Assembly: GCF_025506335.1 (NCBI RefSeq)
Contig: NZ_JANZYO010000009.1
Coordinates: forward strand, 1-64,000
Length of the DNA stretch: 64,000 bases
Origin: Mumia quercus
GTDB taxonomy: Bacteria > Actinomycetota > Actinomycetes > Propionibacteriales > Nocardioidaceae
Direction: 5' to 3'
Shown: positions 6,183 through 37,039 of the stretch, piece after piece
Layout: the number at the start of each line of letters is the position of its first letter
Numbering within the stretch: position 1 is the stretch's first letter
Translations under genes and position numbers: made by a program
The notes under the pieces: model-generated
What the model was told of the DNA's origin: nothing
Database searches by the model: none
The model's input: the letters and a program-made list of their open reading frames with translations, nothing else

Positions 6183-6257
6183 TGGTGGGCGATACTGGGT
6201 TTGAACCAGTGACCTCTTCCGTGTCAGGGAAGCGCGCTACCGCTGCGCCAATCGCCC
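6183..6257 (-). tRNA. tRNA-Val (anticodon GAC)
   Basis: The 75-nt cloverleaf has acceptor GGGCGAT/ATCGCCC, anticodon stem CTTCC/GGAAG with loop CTGACAC (GAC) and T arm ACTGG-TTCAAAC-CCAGT. CCA is encoded at 6185-6183. Its 3' end faces the accessory region 1-6182, the usual side for integration of mobile elements. Confidence 0.95.
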
Positions 6258-6297
6258 GTGAGTCCGAGGGACTCGTCAGGAGCGTGAAGCCCCATCG

Positions 6298-6368
6298 AGG
6301 TGGAGACGGGATTTGAACCCGTGTAAACGGATTTGCAGTCCGTTGCCTCGCCTCTCGGCCACTCCACC
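6298..6368 (-). tRNA. tRNA-Cys (anticodon GCA)
   Basis: Acceptor GGTGGAG/CTCCACC, anticodon stem ACGGA/TCCGT with loop CTGCAAA (GCA), and a T arm with TTCAAAT. The discriminator base is U, as expected for tRNA-Cys. CCA is not encoded. It lies between tRNA-Gly and tRNA-Val in one transcript. Confidence 0.95.
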
Positions 6369-6411
6369 GGACATCTACGATGTCTGAGAAGGGGCCCTGG
6401 GACCCACTCCG

Positions 6412-6483
6412 AGCGGACGACGGGATTCGAACCCGCGACCCTCACCTTGGCAAGGTGATGCTCTACCACTGAGCCACGTCCGC
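6412..6483 (-). tRNA. tRNA-Gly (anticodon GCC)
   Basis: Acceptor GCGGACG/CGTCCGC, anticodon stem TCACC/GGTGA with loop TTGCCAA (GCC), and T arm GCGGG-TTCGAAT-CCCGT. The discriminator base is U. CCA is not encoded. It is the first tRNA of the minus-strand cluster. Confidence 0.95.
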
Positions 6484-6512
6484 GCTTTCCGGGCTTCCCC
6501 GGTGCGAGAGAA

Positions 6513-6542
6513 ACATTAGCGGATGGGGTGAGGGCGTCCAAA
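6513..6542 (-). promoter_or_regulatory. Probable promoter of the Gly-Cys-Val tRNA operon
   Basis: On the minus strand TTTGGA (6542-6537) is followed after 18 bp by TAATGT (6518-6513), about 30 bp before the 5' end of tRNA-Gly. The -10 matches the actinobacterial TANNNT pattern; the -35 is weak. Confidence 0.5.
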
Positions 6543-6564
6543 CGGGGGGTACCCCTCGGCGCGT

Positions 6565-6570
6565 TAACGT
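6565..6570 (+). promoter_or_regulatory. -10 hexamer, leaderless start of the pabC-like gene
   Basis: TAACGT lies 6 nt before the ATG at 6577 and no ribosome-binding site is present. Transcription would start at or next to the A of the ATG. Confidence 0.5.
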
Positions 6571-6576
6571 GGCCGC

Positions 6577-7410
6577 ATGCGCGCCTGGATCAACGGAAGA
6601 ACCCTGCAATCACCGGACGAACCCGCCCTCGGCGTCCTCGATCACGGACTCGTCGTCGGCGACGGGGTCTTCGAGACGGTGAAGGTGGTCGACGGCCAGC
6701 CGTTCGCCCTCACGCGGCACCTCGAGCGGCTCGCGCGCTCGGCCGCAGGCCTCGGGATCGGCGAGCCCGACCTCGACCTCGTACGTGAGGGGGTGGCCGC
6801 GACGGTCGAGGGCCAGGAGCTGCCCTTCGGGCGCATCCGCATCACGGTGACGTCGGGGCCGGGCCCGCTCGGGTCGCCGCGTGGCGACGAGGGTCAGACG
6901 CTCGTCGTCGTCACCGAGCCCGCCGTCCGCCCCGAGCCGACGACGGCGATCGCGACCGTGCCGTGGGTGCGCAACGAGCGCGGTGCGCTGAGCGGCCTCA
7001 AGACCACCTCGTACGCGGAGAACGCGCTCATGGTCGAGCACGCGCGACGGCAGGGCGCGTCGGAGGCCGTCATGGCGAACACCGCGGGGATGCTGTGCGA
7101 GGGGACCGGCTCGTGCGTGTTCTACGTCCTCGACGGTCAGCTCGTGACGCCGACGCTGGAGTCGGGCTGTCTCGCCGGGGTCACCCGTGCCCTCGTGCTC
7201 GAGTGGTGCCGCGATGAGATCGACGTCGTGGAGCGTGACGAGCCAATCGAGGTGCTGCAGCGTGCCGAGGAGGTCTTCCTCGCCGGCACCACCCGCGACG
7301 TCCAGGGTGTCCACCGGGTCGACGACCGCGAGCTGCCCGCACCCGGCCCGGTCACGGCGCTGGCAGCGGAGCTGTTCGCGAAGCGGGCGAAGGAGCAGGT
7401 CGACCCGTGA
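6577..7410 (+). CDS. pabC: Aminodeoxychorismate lyase-like class IV aminotransferase
   Basis: A 277-residue fold-type IV PLP enzyme. The family includes 4-amino-4-deoxychorismate lyase (p-aminobenzoate for folate), branched-chain aminotransferases and D-amino acid aminotransferases. The N-terminal DHGLVVGDGVFET (22-34) is typical. K142 in GLKTTSY is the probable PLP lysine and E175 in MLCEGTGSC is the conserved glutamate. Length and the short N terminus favour PabC over BCAT, but substrate choice cannot be proven from sequence. It appears leaderless. It overlaps the next gene tail to tail by 59 bp. Confidence 0.75.
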   Translation: MRAWINGRTLQSPDEPALGVLDHGLVVGDGVFETVKVVDGQPFALTRHLERLARSAAGLGIGEPDLDLVREGVAATVEGQELPFGRIRITVTSGPGPLGSPRGDEGQTLVVVTEPAVRPEPTTAIATVPWVRNERGALSGLKTTSYAENALMVEHARRQGASEAVMANTAGMLCEGTGSCVFYVLDGQLVTPTLESGCLAGVTRALVLEWCRDEIDVVERDEPIEVLQRAEEVFLAGTTRDVQGVHRVDDRELPAPGPVTALAAELFAKRAKEQVDP

Positions 7411-8023
7411 CGGGTTCCTCGCGCAGGCGGCCGCTCCGTGCGGCGGCGTGCACGAGGAGCGCACCGACGACGGCGCCGAGCGAGCCGAGTGCGAGGTCGC
7501 CCAGGGTGTCCGTGTAGGCGGTCTCGAGCTCGGGGGAGTGCCGCACGAACGCCACGTACTCGCCCAGCTCCCAGCCGATCGCCGTCACCGGCCCGAAGGC
7601 GAGGGCACGCTCGACGACCGCGCCGAGCGGCGCCTCGCGCCCGAGGGTGAGCACGGCGAAGCCGGCGGTCAGCAGCCCCCAATTCATGAAGTGCATCCAG
7701 TCGTCGAACCACCACACGGTGTCGAACAGGTCCAGCCGGTTGCCGAGCGTGTCCGTGAGCCAGGGCAGCGTCACGAGCAGGTCGCCGAGCCACGGGTACG
7801 CCCGTCCGCGCGGGCGCCACAGCCACCACCACAGGAGCGGGACGATCGCGGCACCGAGCGGGTACGCGACCGCCCGGAAGCCGACGGCCTTGCCGCGGAG
7901 GTTCCCCAGATCGGGGTAGACGACGGCGACCGCGAGGAGCACGACGAGGAGGATCTTCGCCGCGATGTCGAGCGCGGCGACGACACGACGCGACGGTGCG
8001 GACCCGGTTTGCGGAGCGGTCAT
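7352..8023 (-). CDS. Polytopic membrane protein, DUF2238/YjdF-like
   Basis: A 223-residue protein with about five or six hydrophobic segments (about 20-38, 50-68, 78-90, 114-127, 138-152 and 174-194). WWFDDWMHFMNW (104-115), GWELGEY (150-156) and the DTLGDLALGSLGA motif (172-184) match the conserved D-HF, E-E and DT-GD pattern of DUF2238 (YjdF) membrane proteins, whose role is unknown. The tail is Pro/Arg-rich. The ATG follows TAGCGT by 6 nt without a ribosome site, so the mRNA is probably leaderless. Confidence 0.65.
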   Translation of the reverse strand: MTAPQTGSAPSRRVVAALDIAAKILLVVLLAVAVVYPDLGNLRGKAVGFRAVAYPLGAAIVPLLWWWLWRPRGRAYPWLGDLLVTLPWLTDTLGNRLDLFDTVWWFDDWMHFMNWGLLTAGFAVLTLGREAPLGAVVERALAFGPVTAIGWELGEYVAFVRHSPELETAYTDTLGDLALGSLGAVVGALLVHAAARSGRLREEPVTGRPAPSPASRTAPLPAP

Positions 8024-8029
8024 GCGCGT

Positions 8030-8035
8030 ACGCTA
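8030..8035 (-). promoter_or_regulatory. -10 hexamer of the DUF2238-like gene
   Basis: TAGCGT on the minus strand ends 6 nt before the ATG at 8023. This is the leaderless pattern seen repeatedly in this window. Confidence 0.5.
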
Positions 8036-8069
8036 GTCTCTGTGACGTCCCGCTGAGACGGGATGCAGC

Positions 8070-8144
8070 GGGCGATTGGCGCAGTGGTAGCGCGCTTCGT
8101 TCACACCGAAGAGGTCACTGGTTCGAACCCAGTATCGCCCACCA
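8070..8144 (+). tRNA. tRNA-Val (anticodon CAC)
   Basis: The 75-nt cloverleaf has acceptor GGGCGAT/ATCGCCC, anticodon stem CTTCG/CGAAG with loop TTCACAC (CAC), T arm ACTGG-TTCGAAC-CCAGT and an encoded CCA. The last 27 bases before the terminal A recur at 8957-8983, marking an integration site. Confidence 0.95.
8117..8143. repeat. Attachment-site copy inside tRNA-Val (attL-like)
   Basis: These 27 bp cover the T arm, 3' acceptor strand and ACC of tRNA-Val(CAC). They are identical to 8957-8983, in direct orientation 840 bp apart. Duplication of a tRNA 3' end is the footprint of integrase-mediated insertion. Confidence 0.8.
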
Positions 8145-32204: not shown

Positions 32205-32233
32205 GGCGGCCTACGATGGAGGCGGAGGTGCCT

Positions 32234-34558
32234 GTGGCCGAGCGTGCGCGGACCGAGTCAGAGCCTCGCAAGGAGTCCGTCCCGACTCCGGCGAGGGTGC
32301 GATCGCGCCTGGCCAGGCTCGGGAGCGGGCGGTCGTCGTCCGACGGCCCCGTGGTGCTGGACCCGCTCTTGCGGATCGTCCGCACCAACCACCCGAAGGC
32401 TGACACCGCGGTCATCGTCCGCGCGTACAAGATCGCGGCCAAGATGCACCGCGGCCAGAAGCGCAAGAGCGGCGACCCGTACATCACGCACCCGTTGGCG
32501 GTCGCGACCATCCTCGCCGAGCTCGGCATGACGCCGCCCACGATCGTCGCCGCCCTCCTCCACGACACCGTCGAGGACACGCCCTACACGCTCGAGCAGC
32601 TCACCAAGGACTTCGGCGCCGAGGTCGCACGCCTGGTCGACGGCGTCACCAAGCTCGACAAGGTCCGCTACGGCGAGAACGCCGAGGCCGAGACGATCCG
32701 CAAGATGATCGTCGCGATGAGCCGTGACATCCGGGTCCTCATCATCAAGCTGGCCGACCGGCTCCACAACATGCGCACGCTGCGCTACCTGCGCCAGGAC
32801 AAGCAGCAGCGCAAGGCCCGCGAGACGATCGAGATCTATGCGCCGCTGGCGCACCGCCTCGGCATGAACACCATCAAGTGGGAGCTCGAGGACCTGTCGT
32901 TCGCGACGCTCCACCCGAAGGTCTACGACGAGATCGTGCGCCTGGTCGCCGATCGTGCGCCGTCGCGCGAGGACTTCATGTCCCAGGTGATCACCCAGGT
33001 CACCGACGACCTCAAGAACGCCAAGATCAAGGCCAAGGTGACCGGCCGGCCCAAGCACTACTACTCGATCTACCAGAAGATGATCGTCCGCGGCCGCGAC
33101 TTCGCCGACATCTACGACCTGGTCGGCATCCGTGTGCTCGTCGAGACGGTGTCGGAGTGCTACGGCGTCCTCGGTGTCGTCCACGCCCGCTGGAACCCTG
33201 TGCCCGGGCGGTTCAAGGACTACATCGCCATGCCGAAGTTCAACATGTACCAGTCGCTTCACACGACGGTCGTGGGCCCGCAAGGCAAGGCGGTAGAGCT
33301 GCAGATCCGCACGCAGCAGATGCACCGTCGCGCCGAGTACGGCGTCGCCGCCCACTGGAAGTACAAGGAGGACGGCGGCAAGGACGGCGGGAAGGGTGCC
33401 GCCAAGGGTGGAGCGTCGTTGGGTGCCTCCGGCACGGACGACCTCGCCTGGATCCGCCAGCTCCTGGAGTGGCAGCAGGAGAACGAGGAGTCGCAGGACT
33501 TCCTCGAGAGCCTGCGGTTCGACCTGTCCGACCAGGTGTACGTCTACACGCCGCGCGGCGACGTCATCGGGCTCCCGGCCGGGTCGACGCCGATCGACTT
33601 CGCGTACGCGGTCCACACCGAGGTCGGGCACACGACGATCGGCGCGCGGGTCAACGGCCGCCTCGTGTCGCTGGAGTCCAAGCTCGAGAACGGCGACTCG
33701 GTCGAGGTCTTCACCTCGAAGGCGCCCGGCGCCGGGCCGAGCCGCGACTGGCTCGACTTCGTCAAGAGCCCGCGCGCCCGCAACAAGATCAAGCAGTGGT
33801 TCACCAAGGAGCGGCGCGACGAGGCGATCGAGCGCGGCAAGGACGCGCTCACCCGCCAGATGCGCAAGGAGGGGCTGCCGCTGCAGCGCCTCCTCAAGCA
33901 CGAGACGCTGGCGACGGTCGCGAAGGACCTCCACCTCGCCGACGTGTCCTCGCTGTACGCGGCCGTCGGCGAGGGGCGGGTCAGCCCGCAGAACGTCGTC
34001 GAGCGCGTGCTCGCCCTCATGGGCGGCGAGGAGGGTGCGAGCGAAGACCTCGCTGAGGCCGTCGTCGTGCCGGACGAGACGTCGCGCCGCCGCCGGGTCC
34101 GCCGCGGCGACGCCGGCGTCCTCGTGAAGGGCATGGACGGGTCCGTGGCGATCAAGCTGGCGCGCTGCTGCACCCCGGTGCCCGGCGACGAGATCATCGG
34201 ATTCGTCACGCGGGCGCAGGGCGTCTCGGTGCACCGGCGCTCGTGCACCAACGCTGCGAGCCTCCTCAAGGAGGAGGAGCGCCTCGTCGACGTCGAGTGG
34301 GCGCCGAGCTCGTCGAGCATGTTCCTGGTCGCGATCCAGGTGGAGGCGCTCGACCGGGCGCGGCTGCTGTCGGATCTCACGCGCGTCCTCTCGGACCAGC
34401 ACGTCAACATCCTGTCGGCGTCGCTGTCGACCGGCCGCGACCGCGTCGCGAAGTCGACCTTCACCTTCGAGATGGGCGACCCGGCGCACCTCGGCCATGT
34501 GCTCAAGGCCGTCCGGACCGTCGAGGGCGTCTTCGACGTCTACCGCGTCAACCAGTAA
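32234..34558 (+). CDS. relA: Bifunctional (p)ppGpp synthetase/hydrolase
   Basis: A 774-residue Rel protein. The hydrolase HD domain carries [10 protein letters not shown] and [10 protein letters not shown]. The synthetase has [13 protein letters not shown] and [13 protein letters not shown]. The TGS domain (about 440-500), helical and zinc-finger ([13 protein letters not shown]) and ACT domains follow. Both active sites look intact, so it should both make and destroy the alarmone. I place the start at GTG 32234 because GGAGG at 32224-32228 is ideally spaced. An ATG at 32216 is in frame but would bury the ribosome sites in codons 2-5. Confidence 0.95.
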
Positions 34559-34560
34559 CG

Positions 34561-34642
34561 CTCGCGAGAGACTTCCGGGACCCTCGCGAGAGACCTCCCG
34601 CACCCTCGCGAGAGACTTCCGGGACCCTCGCGAGCGATCACC
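34561..34642. repeat. Tandem array of a 22-bp CTCGCGAG-containing unit (left array)
   Basis: Three full 22-bp copies start at 34561, 34583 and 34605, and a partial copy at 34627. Each begins CTCGCGAG followed by AGAC and a CCGGGACC-like end. Copies 1 and 3 are identical. The array fills the gap between the stops of relA and of the opposing gene and overlaps the latter's stop. The palindromic core recurs in inverted orientation at 35620-35649. Confidence 0.8.
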
Positions 34643-35552
34643 AGAAGCGCGGCTCGGGCTCGATCCCGATGAGCTCGCCTATGCGCAGCTCGAACGCGGG
34701 ATCGGTACCGAAGATGGTCTCGCGGTCGCCGTTCGCCCACCTCCATCCCCACAGCCGGGAGAGGAGTGCGCGACGCAGCTCGTCGTGCTCGGCATCGGCC
34801 GCCATCGTGTGGAACTCTCGCCCGTCGTACTCCGACGCGACCAGCAGGTGGGGGTACGCGAGGTCGAGGTAGCGGAACGACCCATCAGGCATCCGTACGG
34901 GGTGCTGCGCCGTCGGGCGTGGGAAGCCCGCGTCGAGGAGCCGAAGCCGCTGCCAGCTCTCGCCCGCCGACTGTGCCAAGGGTTCGATCAGGTGCGCCAG
35001 CGACCGTGCCTGGACGATCCCGGGAAAGCCCTTGAGCCTGCCGACTGCCTCGACGACCTCGGGAACCTCGACGAGGCCGGCATGCGCCATCCCGTCGGCG
35101 GCTGCCAGAGCGTACGGACGCCACAGCTTGCGGAGCAGGTCGGTGGTCGTACGCAGAGGAGTCGTGACGGCGATGCCGTCGACCTCCATGACGTCGCCGG
35201 GCGGGAGGATCGCCTGTCGGCAGTCGACTCCCTCGATCTCGGATCGGGTGGTGCCGTGCGGGACGACGAAGGTGGGCGAGAGGCGGTGTCGTTCGCTCGG
35301 CTTGAAGGTGTCGACGTGGAACAGCCATGCGGCGAGGCTGTCGCACACGACCGCCTCGCGTGGTGCGACGAGCTGTGCTGCTTCCAGGCGGAAGGCACGC
35401 GTGTCGGCGACGTTGACGTCGGCGTACACATACGTGAGGACCTCGCGCACTCGCTTCTCGTCGAGCGCGCGAGCCAGCTCTCGAGGCGTCAGACCTACGT
35501 CGTGGGCGTCGCGGCGGAGGAAAGGGCGTCCGTCGTTGATGAGCTCGGCCAT
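34638..35552 (-). CDS. AbiEi-like HTH plus DUF559/PD-(D/E)XK-like protein
   Basis: A 304-residue protein. The N-terminal part (about 1-60, with PFLRRDAHDVGLTPRELARAL) resembles the AbiEi antitoxin-type winged helix. The C-terminal part has LDLAYPHLLVASEYDG and then REFH, the D-x-E-Y-D-G pattern of DUF559/Vsr-like nuclease folds. Such proteins are abundant and often duplicated in Nocardioidaceae, with no known function. The start MAELINDGRPF at 35552 is the first good one. The gene lies alone between inverted repeat arrays and is likely a movable cassette. Confidence 0.65.
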   Translation of the reverse strand: MAELINDGRPFLRRDAHDVGLTPRELARALDEKRVREVLTYVYADVNVADTRAFRLEAAQLVAPREAVVCDSLAAWLFHVDTFKPSERHRLSPTFVVPHGTTRSEIEGVDCRQAILPPGDVMEVDGIAVTTPLRTTTDLLRKLWRPYALAAADGMAHAGLVEVPEVVEAVGRLKGFPGIVQARSLAHLIEPLAQSAGESWQRLRLLDAGFPRPTAQHPVRMPDGSFRYLDLAYPHLLVASEYDGREFHTMAADAEHDELRRALLSRLWGWRWANGDRETIFGTDPAFELRIGELIGIEPEPRFW

Positions 35553-35610
35553 GCGTCCATGGAAGCGACATCGACGGGTCGCGCGCTGATGTTGTCCACA
35601 GGCCCGGGGG

Positions 35611-35649
35611 CCCAAACCTCTCGCGAGGGGGCCCGGGGTCTCTCGCGAG
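35611..35649. repeat. Inverted partner array of the 22-bp unit (right array)
   Basis: Read on the minus strand, two units start at 35649 and 35627: CTCGCGAGAGACCCCGGGCC and then CC, followed by CTCGCGAGAGG and TTTGGGCCC. They correspond to the units at 34561-34642 but point the opposite way. The array lies between the starts of the AbiEi-like gene and the stop of the DUF349 gene. Confidence 0.75.
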
Positions 35650-35652
35650 CGG

Positions 35653-36897
35653 TCAGGTGAGGTCTTGGGCGGACTTGCGGGCCTGGTCGAGCCAGGCCTG
35701 TCGCGCCTCCAACGACTCCTGCAGCTCCTTGACCTTGCGGTCGTTGCCGACGTCGCGGGCCGCGGCGACCTGCGCCTCGAGGTCGGCGACCGCCTTCTCG
35801 AGCTTGCTCACCGTGTCGTCGACCCGGGCGCGGGTCTCCGGGTTGGAGCGTCGCCACTCGTCGTCGGCGGCCGCGGAGATCGCCTTCTCGACGGCGCGCA
35901 GCCTCCCCTCGAGCTCCTTGATCTGGTTGCGCGGGACCTTGCCGGCCGCCTCCCAGCGGTCGGTGATGTCGCGCCACGCCGCGCGCGCGGCGTCGAGATC
36001 CTTGATCGGGACCAGCGCCTCGGCCTCCGCGAGGATCTGCAGCTTGACCTCGGCGTTGGCGGCGTACTCGGCGTCGAGCGCGGCGTTCGCCTCGTCACGG
36101 GCACCGAAGAACCTGTCCTGCGCTCCCCGGAACTTCTTCCAGAGGCGGTCGTCGATGCCGCGCGGTGCAGGCCCGGCTGCCTTCCACTGCGCCATCAGGT
36201 CGCGGAACCTGCCCGCGGTCGGCCCCCAGTCGGTCGAGTCGGCGAGCGCCTCGGCCTCGACGACCAGCCTCTCCTTGACCTTCTGGGCCTGGCCGCGCTT
36301 CTCGTTCTGCTCGGCGAAGTGCGCCTTGCGTCGGCGCGTGTACGCGGTGCGGGCGGTGGAGAAGCGGTGCCAGAGCTCGTCGTCGACCGTCTTGTCGAGC
36401 CGCGGGAGCGACTTCCACTGCTCGAGCATCTCGCGCAGCCGGTCGGCACCGTTGCGCCAGTCGTCCGACGCGGCGATCTGCTCGGCGGTACGAGCGATCT
36501 CCTCCTTGCGGACGGCGGCCTCGGCGGCGCGCTCGGCGCGCTGTGCCTTGCGGCGCTCGCGCTGGGTCTCGATGATCGGCCCGAGCGCATCGAGCCGGTC
36601 GATCAGCGCGTCGAGGTCGCCGACAGCGGCGGCGTTCTCGACGGCGTCGCGGACCTGCGTCACCGCTCGGCGGGCGTCGTCGGGGGAGAGGCTGTCGGAG
36701 GCGATGCGCTTCTCGAGGAGCTCGACCTCGACCGCCAGACCGTCGTAGCGGCGGGTGAAGAGTGCCATGGCCTCAGCCGGGTCACCGTCAGGCCACTGAC
36801 CGACGACGCGCTCGCCTTCGCGCGTGCGGACGTAGACCGTCCCCTGGTCGTCGATGCGGCCCCAGGCCTCAGCAGGGTTCGAGGGAATCTCGCTCAC
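35653..36897 (-). CDS. DUF349 domain protein
   Basis: A 414-residue, very hydrophilic and mostly helical protein with several DUF349 repeats (DWRNGADRLREMLEQWKSL, DWGPTAGRFRDLMAQWKAAG, and others), each followed by a W-[RK]F-x-A-R segment. Long coiled coils are likely at the end. The function is unknown; it is widespread in actinobacteria near relA and hisS. The start is GTG at 36897, with GGTGGAG 3 nt upstream, giving MSEIPSNPAEAWGR. Its stop adjoins the right repeat array. Confidence 0.85.
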   Translation of the reverse strand: MSEIPSNPAEAWGRIDDQGTVYVRTREGERVVGQWPDGDPAEAMALFTRRYDGLAVEVELLEKRIASDSLSPDDARRAVTQVRDAVENAAAVGDLDALIDRLDALGPIIETQRERRKAQRAERAAEAAVRKEEIARTAEQIAASDDWRNGADRLREMLEQWKSLPRLDKTVDDELWHRFSTARTAYTRRRKAHFAEQNEKRGQAQKVKERLVVEAEALADSTDWGPTAGRFRDLMAQWKAAGPAPRGIDDRLWKKFRGAQDRFFGARDEANAALDAEYAANAEVKLQILAEAEALVPIKDLDAARAAWRDITDRWEAAGKVPRNQIKELEGRLRAVEKAISAAADDEWRRSNPETRARVDDTVSKLEKAVADLEAQVAAARDVGNDRKVKELQESLEARQAWLDQARKSAQDLT

Positions 36898-37039
36898 GTC
36901 TCCACCTTGTCGGTTGTGTCGGGCACAGTCTAGAAGCACATCGGGCCGAGGGCGTCGAAGTCCGGACGATGGTCGCGTACGGGTACGGGGTCGGGCGGCC
37001 GCAGGCCTGAGCGATTCGCAGCCGCTTCGGCCGCTCGCG

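Follow-up and report, generated by a model that had tools for sequence, protein, structure and literature searches.

In the window, i.e., the whole stretch of 64,000 nucleotides of DNA that was analysed, a single gene with a predicted AbiEi fold and a Vsr/MTES_1575-type nuclease domain lies between a relA/spoT-type gene and a DUF349 gene, and is framed by two arrays of one 22-bp unit in opposite orientations. The left neighbour (positions 32216 to 34558, plus strand) is an open reading frame matching HD_4, RelA_SpoT, TGS, and ACT_4 above the cut-offs. Its stop codon is followed after 2 bp by the left array (34561 to 34634, plus strand), which comprises three 22-bp units CTCGCGAGAGACYTCCSGSACC (34561–34582, 34583–34604, and 34605–34626, with exact 12-mers at 34561, 34583, and 34605) and a partial unit, CTCGCGAG, at 34627–34634. 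A further 3 bp separate this array from the stop codon (34638–34640) of the nuclease gene, which occupies 34638 to 35552 on the minus strand and was assigned by PADLOC, alignment, and AlphaFold. The right array (35606 to 35649) reads on the minus strand and consists of CTCGCGAGAGACCCCGGGCCCC (35628–35649, with a 20-mer match at 35630–35649) and CTCGCGAGAGGTTTGGGCCCCC (35606–35627), and the 3′ end of the DUF349 gene (35653 to 36939, minus strand) is 3 bp away from it. The nuclease gene has 3 1/3 units on its 3′ side and 2 units, in inverse orientation, on its 5′ side, in agreement with an earlier note on this DNA that counted the unit 3.5 times on the left and about twice, inverted, on the right of one gene; the contact of both arrays with the stop codons of the neighbours, also claimed there, is borne out by the measured gaps of 2–3 bp. 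The unit was described in the same note as palindrome-bearing; the palindrome CTCGCGAG is present in the unit of this species and in some other dialects, i.e., per-gene unit sequences, but is not a trait of the family, which shares the tandem period of 21, 22, or 32 bp and the inverted arrangement.

The nuclease gene probably starts at the ATG at 35552 (304 amino acids) and not at the TTG at 35615 of the longer open reading frame, since a methionine precedes an LINDG or similar motif at the corresponding position of several homologues, in an alignment whose start coordinates were picked by hand. A DnaA-box-like 9-mer, TTGTCCACA on the plus strand (TGTGGACAA in gene sense), lies at 35592 to 35600, 48 bp upstream of this start codon.

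Predicted Structure of the Protein

The protein is predicted to combine an AbiEi-antitoxin-like fold with a Vsr-like nuclease. The window protein matched no Pfam or NCBIfam model at E ≤ 1 and was matched by the AbiEi profiles of PADLOC (1e-10); among 18 relatives, 13 matched Pfam MTES_1575 and 6 matched AbiEi_4, with additional matches to AbiEi_1 and DUF559. When the AlphaFold model (pLDDT 87.9) was compared with known structures by Foldseek, the AbiEi antitoxin 6y8q_A was found (E 1.4e-5, prob 1.00), together with the catalytic domain of the homing endonuclease I-Bth0305I (3r3p; TM to target 0.72, but E only 0.85) and the putative endonuclease-like protein 3hrl (TM to target 0.67, E 0.80); a search for solved relatives by sequence yielded nothing meaningful. 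Within the nuclease domain, all of the 105 homologues compared have E198, E241, H248, D257, and R260, while 104 have D243 and 101 have D230, the other four having E at that position. The EDxHD homing endonucleases (PMC3943268) may be similar in the fold of the catalytic domain, a restriction-enzyme-like active site, long DNA targets, and a self-spreading logic, whereas the present gene is not in an intron or intein, its recognition part is AbiEi-like, and its putative targets are repeated gene-end arrays. Furthermore, the MTES_1575 restriction endonuclease domain (PF18741), which the 13 relatives match, is described in PMC3710099 as a Vsr REase fold, whereas the MTES_1575 protein itself is giant and multidomain and is presented with no mention of repeats in the portion of PMC3710099 that deals with it.

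The AbiEi antitoxins of type IV toxin–antitoxin systems resemble the predicted model in their AbiEi-like fold with an N-terminal DNA-binding domain, and in PMC7319586 these proteins are described as binding inverted repeats within the promoter of their own genes. An AbiE-type toxin–antitoxin or anti-phage regulator, for which the arrays would be autoregulatory operators, would fit these points and the PADLOC matches. We nevertheless regard such a regulator as very improbable: a nuclease domain follows the AbiEi part at the C-terminus, no AbiEii-type nucleotidyltransferase toxin adjoins the gene in the window, where the neighbours are relA and DUF349 (neighbours at 22 other loci were printed in part and read by eye), and arrays are also found downstream of the gene and, genome-wide, at the ends of many genes unrelated to it.

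Inverted Arrays Around the Gene Family

Homologues were gathered by protein similarity alone, and tandem repeats were then sought in 350 bases on each side. The collection comprised 110 loci with a profile score of 200 or more, including a relic copy (L055) in G000, which is the window's genome (4.10 Mb), and the truncated L072; the duplicate loci L137, L138, L140, L141, L142, and L148 were dropped from the counts, and two loci with a flank under 150 bases (L071 and L077) were left out, leaving 108. Both flanks were arrayed at one shared period in 72 of these 108 homologues, which are related, some of them closely, and are not independent counts (z ≥ 4.4, scan 15–40); the shared period was 22 bp in 45, 21 bp in 18, 32 bp in 7, and 33 bp and 15 bp in 1 each, and the corresponding controls were 1 of 108 for shuffled flanks and 2 of 60 for other genes of the same loci. 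A strict test, in which the right unit had to be the inverted left unit, was passed by 73 of 108 loci, as against 2 of 108 without inversion (z ≥ 4, periods 9–65), and the periods obtained were 21 (12), 22 (29), 32 (4), 33 (1), 42 (3), 44 (19), 52 (1), 63 (3), and 64 (1), of which 42, 44, 63, and 64 are multiples. One helical turn of DNA is 10.5 bp, and the basic unit lengths of 21/22 and 32/33 bp are about two or three turns. The homologues are found in different contexts, including relA–DUF349, crp–MBL, and a junction that, on our reading of the neighbour genes, we take to be mannosyltransferase–permease.

The strict test failed in 35 of 108 homologues, some of which the fixed test simply missed, since L065, L072, L158, and L226 do show arrays. 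Serinibacter L072, outside the order, has inverted 21-bp arrays on both sides and failed the 350-base test because the left one is some 600 bases upstream of the apparently truncated gene. The 32-bp arrays form a subset consisting of L158, L181, L190, L203, L212, L224, and L226. Among the loci examined with a profile score below 200, L313 alone had arrays on both flanks; it belongs to another family outside the order, scores 158, and has inverted 21-bp arrays. A gene without arrays is present at relA in L144, and all seven sampled members of family f3 of the order, which has large genomes, are without detectable arrays (L122, L159, L163, L166, L182, L205, and L223); these f3 members provide a natural outgroup for asking what the arrays do. 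At the relA junction, the best period was 21 or 22 on at least one side in 12 of 13 loci flagged with the gene, L122 being the exception, as against 3 of 24 loci without the gene, one of them weak (L129); L144, which was fetched later, is left out of this comparison.

Ordinary terminator-type repeats with the gene between them by chance would fit the scatter of the unit at gene ends throughout the genome. However, framing of so many homologues at many loci and in different dialects, set against the low controls, makes chance placement extremely unlikely and rules out a terminator-only reading as the sole explanation. The earlier note had set against a linkage the prospect of genome-wide scatter at gene ends without association with this gene family: the scatter is real, and the absence of association is not. 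Its suggestion of a nuclease-type gene linked to its repeats, as in REP-associated transposases, is upheld as regards the linkage by the framed homologues and by dispersed copies that, in the cases tested, track the dialect, and the link between gene and repeat is strongly supported at the level of sequence despite the scatter.

Dialects of the Repeat Unit

The unit sequence is specific to each gene. Dialects were compared at 64 loci with clear 21/22-bp arrays (z 4.4 on both sides; the left-flank array of the window locus has z = 4.8) with the best two units per flank, and the left and right units of one locus had a similarity of 0.89, units of different loci one of 0.56, and units of paralogues in the same genome one of 0.57 (12 pairs); paralogues in one genome share unit sequence no more than strangers do. 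Both the 22-bp and the 32-bp class of array occur in the single genomes G134 and G126. Dialect similarity correlates with protein identity only modestly (Mantel r 0.39, 300 permutations), the correlation is not localised to one domain, and a sliding-window partial correlation for a specificity domain was weak, the best partial r being 0.15 at residues 61–80 and 101–120. Within a dialect, the unit consists of a conserved core of roughly 11–13 bp and a linker of variable sequence and fixed length, as expected of phased protein binding; this pattern was drawn from 75 units in G000, 106 in G021, 39 in G079, and 50 in G145, counts in which units of adjoining sites may be included twice.

Dispersed Copies at Gene Ends

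The 12-mer CTCGCGAGAGAC has 37 copies in G000, many of them just past stop codons, as against 1 for the reversed-pattern control. The tandem pair GCGAGAGAC-13-GCGAGAGAC (period 22) was found in three of 294 family genomes, namely G000 (32, as against 0 in the control), G079 (13), and the partial genome G150 (1); the gene of G079 sits at relA and bears the GCGAGAGAC dialect, and G096 has a near-copy of the G079 dialect beside its gene, yet no exact tandem GCGAGAGAC pair. Similarly, CTCGCGGGTCAC, the dialect of the G021 gene, has 63 copies in G021 as against 5 to 14 in five genus mates, and GAGCAGTCACTT, the dialect of two genes of genus g7, has 35 and 14 copies in their genomes as against 1, 0, 0, 0, 0, and 0 in six others. 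The repeat of the resident gene is dispersed outside genes in G000, G021, G079, G145, and G188, and in the cases tested the dispersed copies appear, from their sequence, to follow the dialect of the genome's own gene. A DNA-uptake-type signal was ruled out as a separate candidate, since 60 copies of GCGAGAGACC in 4.1 Mb are far too sparse.

Exact-core searches gave 44 multi-unit non-coding sites, i.e., 17 in G000, 14 in G021, and 13 in G079, of which 28 have convergent neighbour genes, 15 have neighbours on the same strand, and 1 has divergent neighbours, according to gene calls by a codon-usage script that was trained on the window and applied to the other genomes as well. Clusters within predicted coding sequence number 12 in G000 and 6 in G021 and are single units except L263 and L287, which are left out of the 44. 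Among the GAGCAGTCACTT loci of G188 and G174, where 30 of 50 matches were examined and several loci are one cluster, 0 of 30 are inside predicted coding sequence and four were called divergent. Wherever a site has units in both orientations, these point inwards (20 of 20), between same-strand genes too. Some sites are common to different genomes, each with its own dialect: relA–DUF349 (G000, G021, and G079), the 3′ end of ubiE (G000 and G079), and TetR–acpS (G000 and G021).

Two sites deserve separate description. At L272:2768-3222 in G021, two facing arrays of the G021 dialect frame a short predicted gene of roughly 100 codons, which is possibly cargo, the other possibility being two neighbouring solo arrays. 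At the solo site L342 of G188, units of two dialects were seen by eye side by side, one of them resembling the array (GACCCGGCGC) beside L199, a paralogue in G145, which would suggest sharing of gene-end sites between different nuclease/array pairs.

The main rival to a partnership of repeat and nuclease is a domesticated system serving the host at gene ends, in which the protein would bind the arrays as a roadblock terminator or insulator, the nuclease would process DNA at collisions, and site and protein would co-evolve with no copying of units. The position of the arrays against stop codons, the preponderance of convergent sites, the sites shared across genomes in different dialects, and the strong RNA hairpins that most two-sided solo arrays can form (see below) are all in its favour. 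However, 13 to 17 multi-unit sites per genome in the exact-core searches are too few for a general terminator, a separate hairpin was seen by eye beside some array sites (L039 and L048), the two-sided solo arrays face inwards even between same-strand genes, and four loci in G188 and G174 were called divergent. Such a system, which would leave the inverted arrays around the gene and the conserved nuclease residues unexplained, is in our judgement unlikely, although it is the rival to be taken most seriously.

History of the Locus

Within the genus of the window's genome, relA–DUF349 carries the gene in G000 and G049, and crp–MBL carries the gene with arrays in G021, G038, and G064. A frameshifted second copy of the nuclease gene lies at crp–MBL in G000 (G000:C1:148802-149658) with decayed CGCGAGTCACC units, relA of G021 has arrays only, in the dialect of its crp–MBL gene, and the crp–MBL junctions of G057 and G049 gave no match. 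In the protein tree, the three crp–MBL genes group together (96/89), with the relA copy of G049 as their sister (100/98), which implies, within the genus, either a change of locus or copying of the gene followed by loss. The location of the gene follows the protein tree with few changes and was mostly inherited in place. As a separate observation, the crp–MBL spacer of G049 (L302) contains a different tandem repeat with a unit of about 60 bp by eye, including GGGGAGACCCCCACC, where genus mates have the nuclease gene.

The 11-mer CGCGAGTCACC has 28 copies in G000, 25 in G064, 17 in G049, 14 in G057, 6 in G021, and 4 in G038; members of the genus carry background copies of one another's dialects, and the contrast of G000 and G064 is clear only against G021 and G038. 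The live gene of G064 has a dialect similar to CGCGAGTCACC, and G057, with its 14 copies, lacks a high-scoring gene copy, its only relatives lying at about 100 bits. Units of the old and the new dialect occur in one element at 3 of 25 G000 sites, in L044 exactly 22 bp apart; on these three sites only, the mixture is more readily explained by the rewriting of existing sites than by new insertions, and so low a share of mixed sites counts against the partnership reading.

The mobile cassette with its own end repeats that the earlier note proposed is not supported in the sense of simple recent mobility, given the largely tree-like location of the gene. Terminal repeats with repeated protein-binding sites are known at the ends of Tn7. 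A true transposable unit would similarly have the inverted arrays as terminal repeats and the protein as transposase, and the solo arrays near stop codons would be MITE-like deletion derivatives. Gene-bearing and solo elements do share the same inward-facing layout, and the gene occurs at several loci, which differ even between close relatives in one genus. However, when relA was compared by eye among six genus members, the spacer differed throughout and no clean empty site, boundary, or target-site duplication was read; furthermore, paralogues of the same genome differ in dialect and are not near-identical copies, and no relative was found in plasmid (72,556 records, E limit 1e-15), phage (50,697 records, 1e-10), or viral collections at the limits applied. 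We consider a transposable unit quite unlikely, less so than the AbiE-type regulator but more so than the gene-end system.

DnaA-Box-Like Site and RNA Structure

The DnaA-box consensus is YYVTCCACA. A DnaA-box-like 9-mer was found within 160 bp upstream of 90 of 110 family genes, as against 6 of 330 other genes and 0 of 110 for the reversed motif; it occurs in either orientation, at a preferred distance of about 48 or 60–62 bp depending on the orientation, and is also present upstream of 14 of 40 lower-scoring relatives. Of the 75 genes with clear arrays, 31 have TGTGGA upstream, as do 20 of the 35 genes that lack them, and the DnaA-box-like site belongs to the gene family, not to the arrays. 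The site and its preferred distances suggest replication-linked control of the gene.

At the level of RNA, the two-sided solo arrays can form strong hairpins in 16 of the 17, out of 20, that are short enough to fold, and the one-sided arrays have no excess structure (median z −0.45, with 2 of 63 below z −2; 63 of 64 loci were scored). An RNA element was rejected on the latter result and because Rfam, at gathering thresholds, found only four tRNAs in the window; these tRNA genes lie at 6186–8141, three on the minus and one on the plus strand. What the arrays beside the gene and the solo arrays have in common is a property of the DNA, namely the unit and its phase on the helix, and not an RNA fold, which favours a model in which the AbiEi part would bind the core and the nuclease would act at the arrays.

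Proposed Mechanism

Our preferred explanation is a partnership of repeat and nuclease that would work like a REPtron from unrelated parts and be maintained by array-directed cutting and gene conversion, and we give it an even chance of being correct. The sequence comparisons establish the association of the gene with the arrays and the helical phasing of the units. In the mechanism that we infer, of which binding, cutting, gene conversion, and replication timing are the postulated steps, the gene is encoded between two inverted arrays of its cognate unit, and the AbiEi-type fold would be the DNA-binding part, which binds the core of the unit in the arrays. Units at every two or about three helical turns would set copies of the protein side by side on one face of the DNA, and the nuclease would nick or cut the DNA at or beside the arrays. 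Repair from another array-bearing locus would then copy units across by gene conversion, which would keep one dialect per genome, allow pairs of arrays to be retained and to multiply immediately behind stop codons, and occasionally carry the gene from one array site to another. The DnaA-box-like site may couple expression to replication, a stage at which repair templates abound. Maintenance of this kind is probable. Drifting dialects, combined with selection on binding by a protein of use to the host, could produce a very similar pattern.

In its broader form, the proposal is that of an independent actinobacterial counterpart of REP–RAYT, i.e., a large family of AbiEi–Vsr nucleases with private helix-phased dialects, which would use array-directed gene conversion, timed to replication, to rewrite their own target arrays and spread them over gene ends; one genome would house several nuclease/array pairs, each blind to the others. 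This wider claim is more tentative, and we place it somewhat below an even chance.

Comparison with REPtrons

REPtrons, i.e., RAYT (TnpA-REP) with REP, BIME, or REPIN, are the nearest analogue. As characterised in PMC2817692 and PMC3733652, the RAYT enzyme is a tyrosine transposase of the IS200/605 type and each REP is a single palindrome headed by GT(A/G)G; according to PMC2817692, a RAYT gene invariably has an inverted pair of REPs at its flanks. So far as these sources go, the likeness consists of a nuclease-type gene framed by inverted short repeats, inverted pairs dispersed outside genes, and lineage-specific repeats. By contrast, the present proteins have an AbiEi part and a Vsr-like nuclease, with no match to an HUH tyrosine transposase or Transposase_17 by Pfam or fold, and their repeats are tandem helix-phased arrays (21, 22, or 32 bp) of mostly non-palindromic units with no common head and no GTAG-headed palindrome. 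The nearest analogue has another class of enzyme, another repeat architecture, and other phasing, and for this reason we rate the system as new and not as a REPtron, although weighing layout above descent would make it a kind of REPtron. A search confined to open-access literature (subscription papers and preprints were outside its scope) turned up no paper with an apparent description of these arrays together with this gene family.

Implications

The proteins belong in the AbiEi/DUF559/MTES_1575 relationship, where no assigned role was found for them, and the family is predicted to consist of DNA-cutting proteins of soil actinobacteria. The arrays and the nuclease family have the appearance of a nuclease in partnership with the repeats on which it acts, a relationship that has gone unrecognised. 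The arrays suggest a concrete target for each protein, so that dozens of candidate protein–DNA specificity pairs, including those of paralogues in one cell, may be read from the genome, and recognition-code work, programmable DNA binding, and the uniformity of dispersed repeats within a genome become directly testable. If the partnership is true, it would represent a second, unrelated origin of the way of life of a repeat with its resident enzyme that is known from REP elements.
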